Shown here piece after piece: positions 47,453 to 57,440 of a stretch of DNA of 64,000 nt. The position numbers were made by a program, and so were the translations under genes. Position 1 is the first letter of the stretch, and every line of letters starts with the position of its first letter. Below the pieces are notes generated by a model. That model saw only the letters and a list, made by a program, of their open reading frames with translations. It did not search any database and was not told the origin of the DNA. Source of the DNA: Arcticibacterium luteifluviistationis (GTDB taxonomy: Bacteria; Bacteroidota; Bacteroidia; Cytophagales; Spirosomataceae); assembly GCF_003258705.1 (NCBI RefSeq), contig NZ_CP029480.1, positions 2,790,001-2,854,000 on the forward strand, in the 5' to 3' direction.

Positions 47453-48808
47453 ATGAAAAGAAGAGCAATATTAAAGTCCATGGGAGTAGCCTCGCTTGGA
47501 GTAGTTACACCAGCTTTCGCAAATAAAGAATCCTTAGTTCCGACACATACCATAAAAGAACAAAGTTTGTCAACAGAGATTTTAATAGTAGGTGGTGGCA
47601 CTGCCGGTACCATAGCCGCAATACAGGCTGGCAGGACTGGGGCAAAAACCACTTTGATAGAAAGTGGCAGTCAATTGGGTGGCACTACCACTACAGGTGG
47701 AGTGGCATTTCCTGGCATTTTTCATGCATGGGGAAAACAAATTATCGGAGGCATTGGATGGGAATTAGTGATGGACTGTGTAACGTTGAATGGAGACAAA
47801 TTGCCAAATTTTTCAAAAATCCCAGACCGACACTGGAAACATCAGGTGACCATAAACGCTTCTCTATATACTTTACTTGCTGAAGAGAAGTGCTTGGACG
47901 CTGGCGTAAAAATTCGCTATTACGAGTCGCCAACGCAAATTGAATTTCAGAACGGAAAATGGATTGTGGAGACTATTGGAAAGGGAACCAAAACAACCAT
48001 TACTTGCAACCAAATTATTGATTGTACCGGAAATGCCCTGATAGCTTCGATGGCTGGTTATGATGTACTTAAAGAAGAGGACACCCAGCCAGGTTCCTTG
48101 ATTTTTCGACTGGGAGGATACGATTACAATTCGCTTGACCTAAATAAAATACCAAAAGAACACCAAAGAGTTTTACGGCAGAATATGCTAGAAAATTCGG
48201 AAAGAGAAAGCCGCGAACATACATACGTACCCTACAGCTATGTATATGTCAAAGGAGCTGACTCTACCACTTCAGAAAGTCATACGCATGCGAATAATAT
48301 GGGGAGAAAAACCTTACTAAATGTGGTAAGAACCCTTAAAACCCTACCAGGTTGTGAGGATTTGAAAATAGTAGATTTAAAAACGGAAACGGCCGTACGT
48401 GAAACCTATAGAATAGATGGTTTATACAAAATAAATCAGACAGACTATACTTCAGGAAAAGTGTTTGATGATGCCGTTTCACATTCTTTTTATCCTGTAG
48501 ATTTACATCGAGATGGTAAATCTATCTATCAGGAATTTCTTAAACCAGGTGTGGTGGCCAGTATTCCACTGCGGTCGTTGATACCCAAAGGAAGCCAAAA
48601 CTTTTTGGTGGCAGGCCGCTGTGTCAGTAGTGATAGGTTGGCGAATTCGGCTTTACGAGTTCAAGCATCGTGCATGGGAATGGGGCAAGCAGCTGCTGTA
48701 GCAGCAGTGCTGGCAAGTAGACAAGGAATCTCTCCTCAGGAAGTTGATTTTAATGAAATCAAAGAATTGTTAGAAAAGCATGGGGCCATTGTTCCTTCAA
48801 AATCTTAG
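47453..48808 (+). CDS. Tat-exported FAD-dependent oxidoreductase
   Basis: I start at the ATG at 47453 (MKRRAILKSMG), giving 451 residues; a TTG at 47399 would bury the twin-arginine signal. The signal KRRAILK with a hydrophobic stretch and PAFAN cleavage site predicts Tat export of the folded protein. The FAD-binding site is GGGTAGTIAAIQAGRTGA (about 48-65), then LGGTTTTGG. C-terminal AGRCVSSDRLANSALRVQASCMGMGQAAAVAA matches the FAD_oxidored family. Its substrate is unknown. It is coupled to the SGAT protein gene 12 bases downstream, which suggests electron transfer between the two. Confidence 0.88.
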   Translation: MKRRAILKSMGVASLGVVTPAFANKESLVPTHTIKEQSLSTEILIVGGGTAGTIAAIQAGRTGAKTTLIESGSQLGGTTTTGGVAFPGIFHAWGKQIIGGIGWELVMDCVTLNGDKLPNFSKIPDRHWKHQVTINASLYTLLAEEKCLDAGVKIRYYESPTQIEFQNGKWIVETIGKGTKTTITCNQIIDCTGNALIASMAGYDVLKEEDTQPGSLIFRLGGYDYNSLDLNKIPKEHQRVLRQNMLENSERESREHTYVPYSYVYVKGADSTTSESHTHANNMGRKTLLNVVRTLKTLPGCEDLKIVDLKTETAVRETYRIDGLYKINQTDYTSGKVFDDAVSHSFYPVDLHRDGKSIYQEFLKPGVVASIPLRSLIPKGSQNFLVAGRCVSSDRLANSALRVQASCMGMGQAAAVAAVLASRQGISPQEVDFNEIKELLEKHGAIVPSKS

Positions 48809-48820
48809 CGATTATTAATA

Positions 48821-49960
48821 ATGAAGATAGCTTTTTCGCCCTTTTTAAAATACATATTTATAGGTGTACTTCTAAGCTCCTTTTTACAAGCGGACCCACC
48901 TTTGAAGTATATGAAAGCTTCTACCATAAACGAGAGTTTTGTCACCGAAGGTTCGTTCCAAGAAACTATAAAGGACAACATCACAAATGAACCTGTTTAT
49001 ATTCAAAAATCTAAGGAGGGCATTCCGCTATACTACCGCAAAATCATAAGGGACGATGTATGCTTTGATAAAGAATGTAGAAAGCTCGATATCATTATTT
49101 ATTGGAATATAACAGGTCGCTATTTAGGTTTTGAATTGCCTGAAGGGGAATTTTTAAGTAAGCTAGACCATGAACCGTTTGTGGAAAGCGAATACCAAAG
49201 ACTACATGCTTTATTGGCAGATTCGTCAATTCCCTTGGATGCAGTTTCGTTTGAAGAACTCATAGAAAAACCAAGCCTTAAGCATCAAGATTTAGATGCC
49301 GTTTCAGGTGCTACTTCAAAAAGTTTGGCGGAAATGGTGGTAAAGGGTGCAGCCTATACTACTTATAAATTATGGAATATTGTAAATGGTCCAACGATGG
49401 ATTTCCTTTCTAAAAATACAGAAAACCAGTTAACCGCCCATTTGATTCATCTAATCTTACAAAGCCCAGAAAGCTTTGATAGGGTGTGGGCACTGCATAA
49501 AATAAATAGCTCTGTGCCTCTTACGCCAGATTTAGAAAACGCATTATTGGAAATCATTTCTTCCGACGATTTTTATTTATCTTATACTGCCATTCAAGCC
49601 ATCGAGGCTGTCCATCTAAATAGTTTTGAATTTCAAGAGCGTTTGTTTTCACTTTATAAAAATGCCAATCACAGTATTCAAAAAGAGTTACTTAAAACAT
49701 TGATGGAGGCTCCTGTGCTCAGCCCTAAACTTGTAGGCTCCTCAAAAGGGCTGCTGAAGCAATTAAATGGACAGCAATTAGAGAATATTCTAGCATTATA
49801 CGCCCGACATAGCATCTATGACCTTGAAACTTGTAGGGCTGTAGCGAGTATTCTAGACAATGAAAACCCCTTTATATCAAAAAAAGCTTATCATTTTTTA
49901 GTCCGAATAAAGTCAAAAGATGAATTTATTCAAGAGCGACTCAAAGCATATAAAAACTAA
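48821..49960 (+). CDS. Exported SGAT-motif (putative FMN-binding) protein with helical C-terminus
   Basis: This encodes 379 residues with a signal peptide (about 1-24). Residues 40-190 form a domain with CFDKECRKLDIIIYW and YLGFELPEGEFLSKL, followed by LDAVSGATSKS at 158-168. D-x-x-S-G-A-T-S is the sequence on whose threonine (here Thr165) ApbE-type transferases attach FMN in exported flavoproteins. Residues 200-379 are all-helical and look like HEAT-type repeats. By inference it is a periplasmic covalent flavoprotein paired with the FAD oxidoreductase just upstream. No apbE is visible in this window. Confidence 0.7.
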   Translation: MKIAFSPFLKYIFIGVLLSSFLQADPPLKYMKASTINESFVTEGSFQETIKDNITNEPVYIQKSKEGIPLYYRKIIRDDVCFDKECRKLDIIIYWNITGRYLGFELPEGEFLSKLDHEPFVESEYQRLHALLADSSIPLDAVSFEELIEKPSLKHQDLDAVSGATSKSLAEMVVKGAAYTTYKLWNIVNGPTMDFLSKNTENQLTAHLIHLILQSPESFDRVWALHKINSSVPLTPDLENALLEIISSDDFYLSYTAIQAIEAVHLNSFEFQERLFSLYKNANHSIQKELLKTLMEAPVLSPKLVGSSKGLLKQLNGQQLENILALYARHSIYDLETCRAVASILDNENPFISKKAYHFLVRIKSKDEFIQERLKAYKN

Positions 49961-54796: not shown

Positions 54797-56956
54797 CTAA
54801 ACCACGCTCAAATCCAAGGGCAATTTCCTGTGTCTTTCGCCTGTAAGGTTGAAAATGGCATTTCCTAGAGCAGGGGCTATTGGCGGTAAGCCTGGCTCTC
54901 CTACTCCACCTGGTGCTTCTTGGTTTTCTATGATATGAATGTCCACTTTTGGCATTTCCGCCATTCGCATAAACTGATAATCATGGAAATTACTTTGGTC
55001 GCATTTGCCATTAGAAAAGGTTATTCCACCTTTTACCGCTGCAGATATTCCCATCACTATGTTTCCTTCTGTTTGTGCTTTTACATGGTCTGGGTTTACG
55101 TATTGACCGCAGTCTATCACAGACGTCACTTTGACTATTTCTATGCCGTTTTCTCCTTTTTTAACCTCCACGGCAGCTGCACTCATGGTTTCAAAAGAAC
55201 GGAACATGGCCACGCCTCTTTTATGTCCTGCTGGTAATGCACCGTAAGTAGCTAAAACATCTTCCAGTTTCTTAATTACCTTTAAGTCTCTCTCGCTGTC
55301 TTTTAGTAATTCCTTTCTGGCTGTTAAAGGGTCTTTTCCTGCTTTATGAGCCATCTCGTCTATAAAACATTCTTGTCCCCAACCAAAGTTAGACGCATAA
55401 ACAGACCTCCACCAAAGAATTGGAATTGGCGTTTCTACGCGGCTATAGGTTACTTTATGTGTTCCAAATTTGTATTTATGATTCTCTTGAGCAAGCTCTC
55501 CACCTAACCATCCATCCGCTTTATAAGGCAAAAGTCCATTCCAAAGCTGCCCTTGAATAGACTCGCCAATGGCTTGATGACTCAAAGCATCTAAGGTATC
55601 TCCTTTGCCTATCACACCCTGCATTTTACTCAGCATGGCAGGCCTGTACGGTCCCTGAGCCATATCTTCTTCTCTTGCCCAAATCAGTTTCACAGGAGCC
55701 TGCACTTGCCTAGATATATCAATGGCCTCTTTCATGAAATTCATGAAGGCTTTACGCCCAAAAGAACCTCCCAACAGTGTGGCATTAATTTTCACTTTAT
55801 CCGGCGAAATCCCCAATACAGAGGCTGCGTCTCCTATGGCTCCGTCTGGCCCCTGAATAGGTGCCCAAACCTCCACCGAACCATCTGGCTTCACATAGGC
55901 CGTAGCATTCACAGGCTCTATGGCCGAGTGAGATAAAAATGGTGTTTCGTAAATACCTTCTAAAGTATTCTCCGATGCCTTATAATAGGCATTAAAGTCA
56001 CCATCTTCTTCATAACGAATACCTTCAGACTCGGCTGCTTTGTACATATCAGCCACATATTTGTCTGAGTTTAACGTTTTCTCTAAATCGCCATTTGACC
56101 ATTTTATGTCTAATAACCTGCTGGCTTTCAGAGCCGACCAATAATTGGTAGCCACTACTGCCACAGACTCGTTTTCTCCTCCTGAGTAAAAGCTTTTCGC
56201 TCTTACAATTTTCTTTACACCCGAAATTTTAAGAGCAGCACTATCGTCAATGCTCACTATTTTTCCTTCAATAGACGGAGCATGTACACTCGCTGCATAA
56301 AGCATACCTGGTACTACTACATCAATTCCGAAAACAGCTTTTCCTGTAACACGGCTAGGCACGTCAAGACGTTTGTGAAACTTTCCTAAATATTTAAAGT
56401 CTTTAGCATCTTTAAGTTTAGGGTTTTTAGGTACTTCTAGTAGGTTTGCTTCTTCGGCTAATTCACCATAAGTAAACACTTTGTCAGAACCCTTCAAATG
56501 TACTTTGCCCATTTCAGCATAGCACTGGTCTATGGACACTTTCCACCTTTTTGCGGCAGTTTCTATCAGCATCTCTTTGGCGGCAGCACCAGTTTTACGG
56601 AGATTATTCCATAAACCTCTCACGGTACTACTTCCACCAGACTGCTGCGAACCATATTTGGCCTTACCGTCAGACTGTATAATTCTTACTTTACTTAAAT
56701 CTACTTCTAGTTCTTCTGCCAAAATAGATGGCACCGCTTGGGTAGAACCTTGACCCATATCTGGGCGACTATTCACCAGCGTAATGGTGTCGTCGGTAGA
56801 AATAATTATGAATGGGTTTATCTCTAGCTCCAGCACTTTGGCTGTTATTTTCTTAACAGGAGCAGCATTTGCTAAAGTATTAACGCCTAAAACCAATCCC
56901 AAACTACCGATGGACGATACTTTTAAAAAGTCTCTTCTTGTATTTTTATTGCTCAT
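54797..56956 (-). CDS. Xanthine dehydrogenase-family large subunit, Tat-exported
   Basis: I start at the ATG at 56956 (MSNKNTRRDFLKVSS), giving 719 residues; earlier residues in the frame lack sense as an N-terminus. The Tat signal TRRDFLK predicts export. The rest is a single molybdopterin-binding chain of the IorB type (isoquinoline 1-oxidoreductase beta-like): RPDMGQGSTQAVPSILAEEL near 65, QQSGGSSTVRG, GGSFGRKAF near 395, and GVGEPGLPPIAPA near the end, with the catalytic glutamate in GEPGLPP. It hydroxylates an aromatic or aldehyde substrate in the periplasm, with electrons leaving through the 2Fe-2S subunit encoded just upstream. Confidence 0.9.
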   Translation of the reverse strand: MSNKNTRRDFLKVSSIGSLGLVLGVNTLANAAPVKKITAKVLELEINPFIIISTDDTITLVNSRPDMGQGSTQAVPSILAEELEVDLSKVRIIQSDGKAKYGSQQSGGSSTVRGLWNNLRKTGAAAKEMLIETAAKRWKVSIDQCYAEMGKVHLKGSDKVFTYGELAEEANLLEVPKNPKLKDAKDFKYLGKFHKRLDVPSRVTGKAVFGIDVVVPGMLYAASVHAPSIEGKIVSIDDSAALKISGVKKIVRAKSFYSGGENESVAVVATNYWSALKASRLLDIKWSNGDLEKTLNSDKYVADMYKAAESEGIRYEEDGDFNAYYKASENTLEGIYETPFLSHSAIEPVNATAYVKPDGSVEVWAPIQGPDGAIGDAASVLGISPDKVKINATLLGGSFGRKAFMNFMKEAIDISRQVQAPVKLIWAREEDMAQGPYRPAMLSKMQGVIGKGDTLDALSHQAIGESIQGQLWNGLLPYKADGWLGGELAQENHKYKFGTHKVTYSRVETPIPILWWRSVYASNFGWGQECFIDEMAHKAGKDPLTARKELLKDSERDLKVIKKLEDVLATYGALPAGHKRGVAMFRSFETMSAAAVEVKKGENGIEIVKVTSVIDCGQYVNPDHVKAQTEGNIVMGISAAVKGGITFSNGKCDQSNFHDYQFMRMAEMPKVDIHIIENQEAPGGVGEPGLPPIAPALGNAIFNLTGERHRKLPLDLSVV

Positions 56957-56960
56957 GATT

Positions 56961-57440
56961 TTATGGTTTTTCCGTTGACAATTGACCCGATGCTCTATTG
57001 ATAGCTTTTTTGATTCTATCATAGGTCCCACATCTACATAAGTTTCCGTTCATGTAACTCGTGATATCTTCTTCGTTTGGCTTTGGAGTTTGTTCCAAAA
57101 GAGCTACAGCCGACATTATCTGACCCGACTGGCAATAGCCGCACTGTGGTACTTGCTCTTCTACCCATGCTTCTTGTACAGCATGAAGGGTTTCTTCAGA
57201 ACCAATTCCTTCTATGGTCGTGATTTTTTGTTTCTTAGAAATAGAACCTACTGGCATTTGGCAGCTTCTTACAGGCATACCATCCAAATGAACCGTGCAC
57301 GCTCCACATTGAGCTATTCCGCAGCCATATTTAGTTCCTTTAAGACCCACTAGGTCTCTGATAGCCCAAAGGAGGGGCATATCTTCTTCCGCCTCAATTT
57401 TATAGCGGGTATCATTTACGGTTAAGTTGTAATTCGGCAT
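56961..57440 (-). CDS. 2Fe-2S subunit of molybdenum hydroxylase
   Basis: This encodes 159 residues with the two cluster motifs of the xanthine dehydrogenase family: [15 protein letters not shown] (near 40-55) for the plant-type cluster, and [10 protein letters not shown] with [10 protein letters not shown] (near 97-142) for the second. It has no export signal and presumably travels with the Tat-bearing large subunit. It ends four bases before the large subunit start, so the genes form one operon. It transfers electrons from the molybdenum site to an acceptor not encoded here, likely a cytochrome. Confidence 0.92.

Follow-up and report, generated by a model that had tools for sequence, protein, structure and literature searches.

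An exported, putatively flavinylated carrier protein encoded beside a PF12831 oxidoreductase in Arcticibacterium luteifluviistationis and other Bacteroidota

The gene pair and its surroundings

The window, a stretch of 64,000 nucleotides that is part of the 5.38-Mb single-contig genome of Arcticibacterium luteifluviistationis, carries two adjoining open reading frames located on the same strand with an intergenic gap of 12 bases. The following features were recognised in this region.

47453..48808, + strand: PF12831 FAD-dependent oxidoreductase, 451 aa, with the Tat-like signal MKRRAILKSMG (translation and Pfam; Tat motif by eye)
48821..49960, + strand: putative flavinylated carrier, 379 aa, exported, consisting of an FMN_bind-fold domain and an ARM/HEAT-like half (translation and models)
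48896..49438, + strand: N-terminal domain of the carrier, residues 26–206, with an FMN_bind (NqrC/RnfG) fold in the model (prediction and structure search)
49061..49078, + strand: C81-x4-C86 of the carrier, an invariant cysteine pair at a beta-hairpin (34/34 alignment rows)
49295..49315, + strand: D159-A-V-S-G-A-T165 of the carrier, a putative ApbE flavinylation motif (translation and alignment)
49391..49957, + strand: residues 191–379 of the carrier, the ARM/HEAT-like helical half (model; weak Pfam match to PF13646 HEAT_2, E 0.0019, below cut-off)

A preliminary description of this DNA had proposed two genes 12 bases apart on one strand, a Tat signal and an FAD site in the first product, and export together with a flavinylation motif ending at Thr165 in the second. 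All of this is borne out by the present analysis. The reading frames (47453–48808 and 48821–49960, both +) have the proposed spacing, the first product starts with the Tat-like sequence given above, and Pfam assigns it to PF12831 (FAD_oxidored) with an E-value of 5.8e-81 over residues 42–440 and a score of 273.3 bits against a cut-off of 27, covering positions 1–416 of the 416 in the profile. In the same scan FAD_binding_2 matches residues 43–83 only (24.1 bits) and a full-length match to it is absent from the oxidoreductase, the carrier being encoded by a separate gene. The N terminus of the carrier is hydrophobic and signal-like (by eye), and its motif reads D159-A-V-S-G-A-T165-S.

The pair is neighboured by a nucleoside-hydrolase-like gene on the opposite strand and by another gene without any Pfam match, and a scan for promoters and terminators at the locus gave sites no more frequent than in shuffled sequences. 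Elsewhere in the window an exported molybdopterin-type large subunit with a Tat-like signal (54800–57031, minus strand) and a 2Fe-2S small subunit (56964–57440, minus strand) were noted by eye, together of the aldehyde/isoquinoline oxidoreductase type. The same genome harbours a second carrier-oxidoreductase pair at C1:3.50 Mb. Four of its six PF12831 matches are not located beside a carrier, so that only some of the PF12831 enzymes are paired with one.

Predicted fold of the carrier

Pfam and NCBIfam scans of the carrier revealed no flavin domain, and the FMN_bind profile search suggested in the preliminary description gave a negative answer, PF04205 being reached neither by the window carrier nor by its isolated N-terminal domain. 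Six of 45 family members matched PF04205 weakly (best E 0.011), a signal equalled by six members of the unrelated family OrtA (best E 0.018), and a profile-profile comparison of the carrier with 14 FMN_bind proteins gave a match of 15 columns, at the motif only, with a probability of 30%. As the PF04205 cut-off is missed, the carrier is not filed as a member of that family and is regarded, on the basis of its fold, as a divergent relative. The family profile found its best match among PDB sequences in 8p2b ('Clostridiaceae bacterium FMN4 domain 1'), with E-values of 0.047 and 0.042 and the motif as the aligned part; from the available part of PMC10339131 we infer that this is a flavinylated FMN_bind domain. 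A search of the PDB with the single sequence gave nothing but short matches to unrelated proteins, of which Ika8 was the best (E 0.001, residues 170–193).

The AlphaFold model of the carrier (mean pLDDT 86) consists of an alpha/beta N-terminal domain and a helical-repeat C-terminal half, the latter all helical from residue 191 on with a 10-residue mean pLDDT of at least 91. ARM/HEAT chains came out on top when the full-length model was used for structure searching, as the HEAT-like half claimed beforehand would suggest, but the VIA Z-scores of this half reach 11.6 at most, which is below the level that the tool advises for helical repeats. The helical half would be the likely docking surface.

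Since the full-length search was filled by ARM/HEAT chains, residues 26–206 were predicted alone (mean pLDDT 79). The two best Foldseek rows for this model were NqrC, with weak E-values of 0.12 and 0.18. In VIA, which re-ranks Foldseek candidates only and warns that a Z below 8 may reflect a common arrangement, the top 15 rows were all RnfG/NqrC chains with Z 6.9–4.6 (three have NqrC in the title and the rest bear a chain letter of Rnf/Nqr complexes), aligning 121–140 of 181 residues at rmsd 4.1–5.1, and the first unrelated row had a Z of 3.9. The least confident parts of the carrier models include the motif and the residues directly preceding it. Kinship of the N-terminal domain to NqrC/RnfG is indicated because one family fills the top of the VIA ranking with a gap below it. 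In the predicted model, then, Thr165 is surrounded by the FMN_bind-like fold that the preliminary description called for, at modest Z and in a family beyond the reach of the Pfam model.

Distribution and pairing with the oxidoreductase

Of the 291 genomes from the same order 34 contain carrier homologues, and a phylum-wide set of 395 genomes gave 8 with them, counting the window's genome; by genus they occur in 11 of 116 within the order. Close relatives with 61–63% identity are present in bins labelled Urechidicola and Flavobacteriaceae, and a plasmid search gave two records with partial matches, one from Flammeovirga annotated as 'hypothetical protein' and one unannotated. The mapped set consists of 53 carrier genes in 51 loci (of the 51 match rows from the search of the order, eight are not mapped in long stretches: two in G155, G251:C5:182689, G248:C45:398436 and one each in G063, G131, G143 and G118).

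An oxidoreductase of the window's type is located in the locus of 52 of the 53 carriers, and for 50 of them within 300 nt on the same strand. The oxidoreductase comes first in 27 of these adjacent pairs and the carrier in 23, with a median gap of 7 (in two of the 50, L057 and L059, the carrier positions were set from L006 and L008 and the gap was entered as 15, the true value for L008 being ~6). The sole carrier without an oxidoreductase, L052 of G033, lies near a contig end where unknown bases form a run, and its bin is 84% complete. The neighbourhood, whose conservation the preliminary description had made a test of its proposal, is thus conserved, and the genome-wide survey of the pair that it suggested yields the counts given here. 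With D159 and T165 invariant in an alignment of 34 rows and the oxidoreductase in 52 of 53 loci, the observed pair and motif are beyond chance.

Comparison of the oxidoreductase and carrier trees gave a Mantel r of 0.67 for 45 pairs, the best of 2000 permutations reaching 0.34 (the five pairs with an oxidoreductase above 900 aa were left out and shared ancestry is uncorrected). The oxidoreductases paired with the carrier are of at least four builds. Those of about 450 aa and those of about 640 aa carry a Tat-like signal, those of about 600 aa mostly have a Sec-like signal together with additional sequence at the N terminus, and a further build measures about 1,055 aa. One 640-aa oxidoreductase carries a DUF7402 / F5_F8-like tail (F5_F8 match below cut-off), with which the tails of the L054 and L110 oxidoreductases align. 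A common electron partner would be expected to occur with several oxidoreductase architectures, as this one carrier family does with at least four. No membrane-bound donor or acceptor of electrons was seen in the neighbour clusters that recur.

Conserved residues and the flavinylation motif

In the 34-row alignment the invariant carrier positions are C81, C86, W95, G99, L112, F120, Y125 and L132, followed by D159, A164, T165, G176, A177 and W185; the 33-row alignment A1, made without L030, has the same 14 invariant columns, all within residues 81–185. The C-x4-C...W pattern occurs in all 53 mapped homologues. In the carrier model two strands are connected by a short turn with C81 on one side of it and C86 on the other, a position that suits a structural disulfide.

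The flavinylation motif is given as D-x-x-[S/T]-G-A-[S/T] in the available text of PMC12052999, according to which flavinylation is reduced to varying degrees by single changes of the D, G or A and abolished when the Thr is lost. The window carrier has the canonical form (DAVSGAT). Both the D and the T are kept in 45/45 carrier N-terminal domains (alignment A2, comprising 45 of the 50 that are non-redundant), and the final Thr is retained in all 53 homologues, of which 33 have a canonical motif, 14 AGAT, five SSAT/TSAT and one SGST (counts that include four TGAT motifs read by hand). The departures from [S/T]-G-A-[S/T], 20 of 53, count against the reading as a flavinylated carrier. No D-x-x-[STA]-G-A-[ST] motif was found in the mapped oxidoreductases.

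Presence and linkage of apbE

The preliminary description had named absence of apbE from genomes with the pair as evidence against flavinylation. An apbE gene was found in all 40 carrier-bearing genomes tested (34/34 in the order and 6/6 others), though also in 182 of 257 genomes without the carrier, in total 216/291 genomes and 85 of 116 genera, the association at genome level having a p of 3e-5 with kinship ignored. Gene linkage is the stronger point. Within 2.5 kb and on the same strand apbE accompanies 19 of the 53 carriers, where linkage by chance is estimated by hand at well below 1% (roughly three apbE genes in 6.5 Mb); the other 34, window copy included, have none within that distance. 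Sixteen loci are arranged as carrier-oxidoreductase-ApbE, in two cases with a second pair behind ApbE, and L110 as oxidoreductase-ApbE-carrier. In L037 and L076 two tandem carrier-oxidoreductase pairs are arranged around one apbE each, the oxidoreductase of the second pair being of a Tat-like 632-aa type.

In a tree of 37 ApbEs (L135 has no ApbE and is absent) 16 of the 17 linked sequences form one clade with a support of 0.92, apart from four nqr-linked ApbEs. The ApbE of L110 groups with three unlinked ApbEs next to this operon clade, so that a single origin of the linkage followed by rearrangement is no less possible than two origins. The genomes G127, G278 and G184 have the pair without an adjoining apbE (L038, L040 and L074), and their apbE located elsewhere (L126, L124 and L122) groups with that of L110. 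Loci with the AGAT motif are linked to apbE in 13 of 14 cases, compared with 6 of 39 for other motifs; as essentially one clade is concerned, this association is no independent test. In the clade with linked ApbE most motifs have drifted to AGAT, which may point to a transferase with its own specificity. The window's genome has a single apbE, located beside an nqrF-like gene (neighbours by eye), and PF04205 matches just one of its proteins, which is NqrC-like.

These results bear on the view that the carrier is unflavinylated, its FMN_bind fold a relic and the helical protein a scaffold or chaperone of the oxidoreductase. The lack of a Pfam match, the relaxed motif in 20/53 homologues and the missing adjoining apbE for 34/53 agree with such a role, but the Thr kept in 53/53, an apbE linked to 19/53 in two gene orders and its presence in 40/40 genomes make it very unlikely.

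The polysaccharide-locus setting

SusC or SusD was identified in 38 of the 51 loci and any polysaccharide-type marker in 45, with sulfatases in 12, GH2 in 15, a GH88/GH127-like protein in 18 and a fucosidase in 5 (one query per family, the families of the queries being assigned by domain search). In many loci SusC-SusD lies directly upstream of the pair in the same orientation. The seven genomes examined for SusD hold 23 to 93 copies each, and with SusD so frequent part of the Sus association is background. None of the queried polysaccharide markers was found at the window locus. The pair of L108 is located beside CoA-transferase-, P450- and ferredoxin-like genes (by eye), a setting that is not polysaccharide-like. 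Neither the polysaccharide loci nor the linked apbE of the relatives had been foreseen in the preliminary description.

In L054 (6588–7124), and also in L055, a thioredoxin-like gene (WCSPC) is located just upstream of the pair; the L054 locus holds lambda-carrageenase and sulfatases as well.

A flavinylated carrier could have other partners, such as a thioredoxin-like protein or its own C81-C86, with the oxidoreductase merely co-regulated. The invariance of the C-x4-C and the thioredoxin-like gene that precedes the oxidoreductase in L054 and L055, with a match of the same query in L051, speak for this. We nevertheless hold it unlikely, since such matches occur in 3 of 51 loci only while the oxidoreductase accompanies 52 of 53 carriers, and since the two cysteines lie at a turn between strands, where a structural disulfide would suit.

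Proposed role of the pair

The folds of the predicted models, the motif, the pairing, the partial apbE linkage and the polysaccharide context, all computed here, point to the carrier as, probably, the ApbE-flavinylated electron partner of the adjoining periplasmic PF12831 oxidoreductase; flavinylation, occupancy by FAD, electron transfer, its direction and the substrate are what we infer from them. The carrier would be exported and FMN then attached covalently by ApbE to Thr165 of the divergent FMN_bind-fold domain, a task that in the window's genome would fall to the single apbE beside the nqrF-like gene. The oxidoreductase would act on its substrate outside the cytosol; for most homologous loci this is probably a carbohydrate, or a compound linked to one, that enters via SusC/SusD. 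The flavin of the carrier would take electrons from, or give them to, the FAD of the oxidoreductase and so connect it to the rest of the redox system of the cell, either by sugar oxidation with electrons leaving or by reduction fed from the chain.

A narrower version would make the carrier the second-flavin subunit of a reductase, resembling a split urocanate/fumarate reductase, with the respiratory chain supplying the electrons that reduce the substrate. In the available text of PMC8238504 the known FMN_bind-FAD pairs of such a kind are chain-fed reductases, and the best PDB relatives of the oxidoreductase profile are flavocytochrome c3 fumarate reductases. This match, however, is limited to about 70 residues of the Rossmann region that binds FAD; the enzyme itself is a PF12831 member, with FAD_binding_2 confined to residues 43–83; and the polysaccharide-locus context suits sugar oxidation at least equally. 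The narrower version is accordingly possible but somewhat doubtful.

The electron-partner reading may also be extended to a periplasmic flavin relay encoded in the PULs of Bacteroidota, where a single family of covalent-FMN/HEAT carriers, accompanied in some clades by a dedicated ApbE, would serve PF12831 enzymes of varied specificity and wire the redox steps of glycan breakdown to electron transport. We put this forward tentatively, with chances close to even.

Relation to known flavinylated proteins

Like NqrC and RnfG (PF04205) the carrier has the fold, in its model, the DxxSGAT motif followed by helices, export and an apbE in the genome. Unlike these, it is missed by PF04205, has the invariant C-x4-C and a fused ARM/HEAT-like half, and is partnered with a soluble FAD enzyme instead of a membrane Nqr/Rnf complex. 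With the flavinylated fumarate/urocanate reductases (UrdA and Listeria FrdA) the pair would share the combination of a covalent-FMN domain and an FAD enzyme outside the cytosol. Fumarate-reductase-like enzymes with an FMN-binding domain are mostly fused, and separate-gene clusters are reported too, in the accessible portion of PMC8238504; what distinguishes the present pair from UrdA and Listeria FrdA is the PF12831 enzyme, the separate and divergent carrier and, in many homologues, the polysaccharide loci.

Further ApbE substrates named in the available parts of PMC8238504 and PMC11334425 are FMN-bind2, DUF2271, DUF3570, Flavodoxin_4 and FMN_red, which there, like the carrier here, are recognised largely by gene linkage. 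FMN-bind2 is described in them as a ~160-aa subtype, sometimes with several copies per protein. The domains in these partial accounts are different ones and a HEAT fusion is not mentioned, the carrier being set apart from them by descriptions only; its kinship to FMN-bind2 is possible.

The protein-flavinylation literature considered comprises parts of PMC8238504, PMC10979944, PMC11334425 and PMC12052999. In our searches of the open-access literature no description was found of the carrier family or of flavinylation tied to polysaccharide loci, in line with the earlier remark that the domain architecture appears little described, and judged by titles and the beginnings of abstracts no activities were found for PF12831 enzymes in polysaccharide loci. 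If the proposed role is true, the known flavinylated proteins gain a family that surveys based on Pfam would overlook, and protein flavinylation is tied to polysaccharide utilisation. The carrier would then be a handle on the PF12831 enzymes of polysaccharide loci, as it should report substrate-dependent reduction or oxidation of its flavin.
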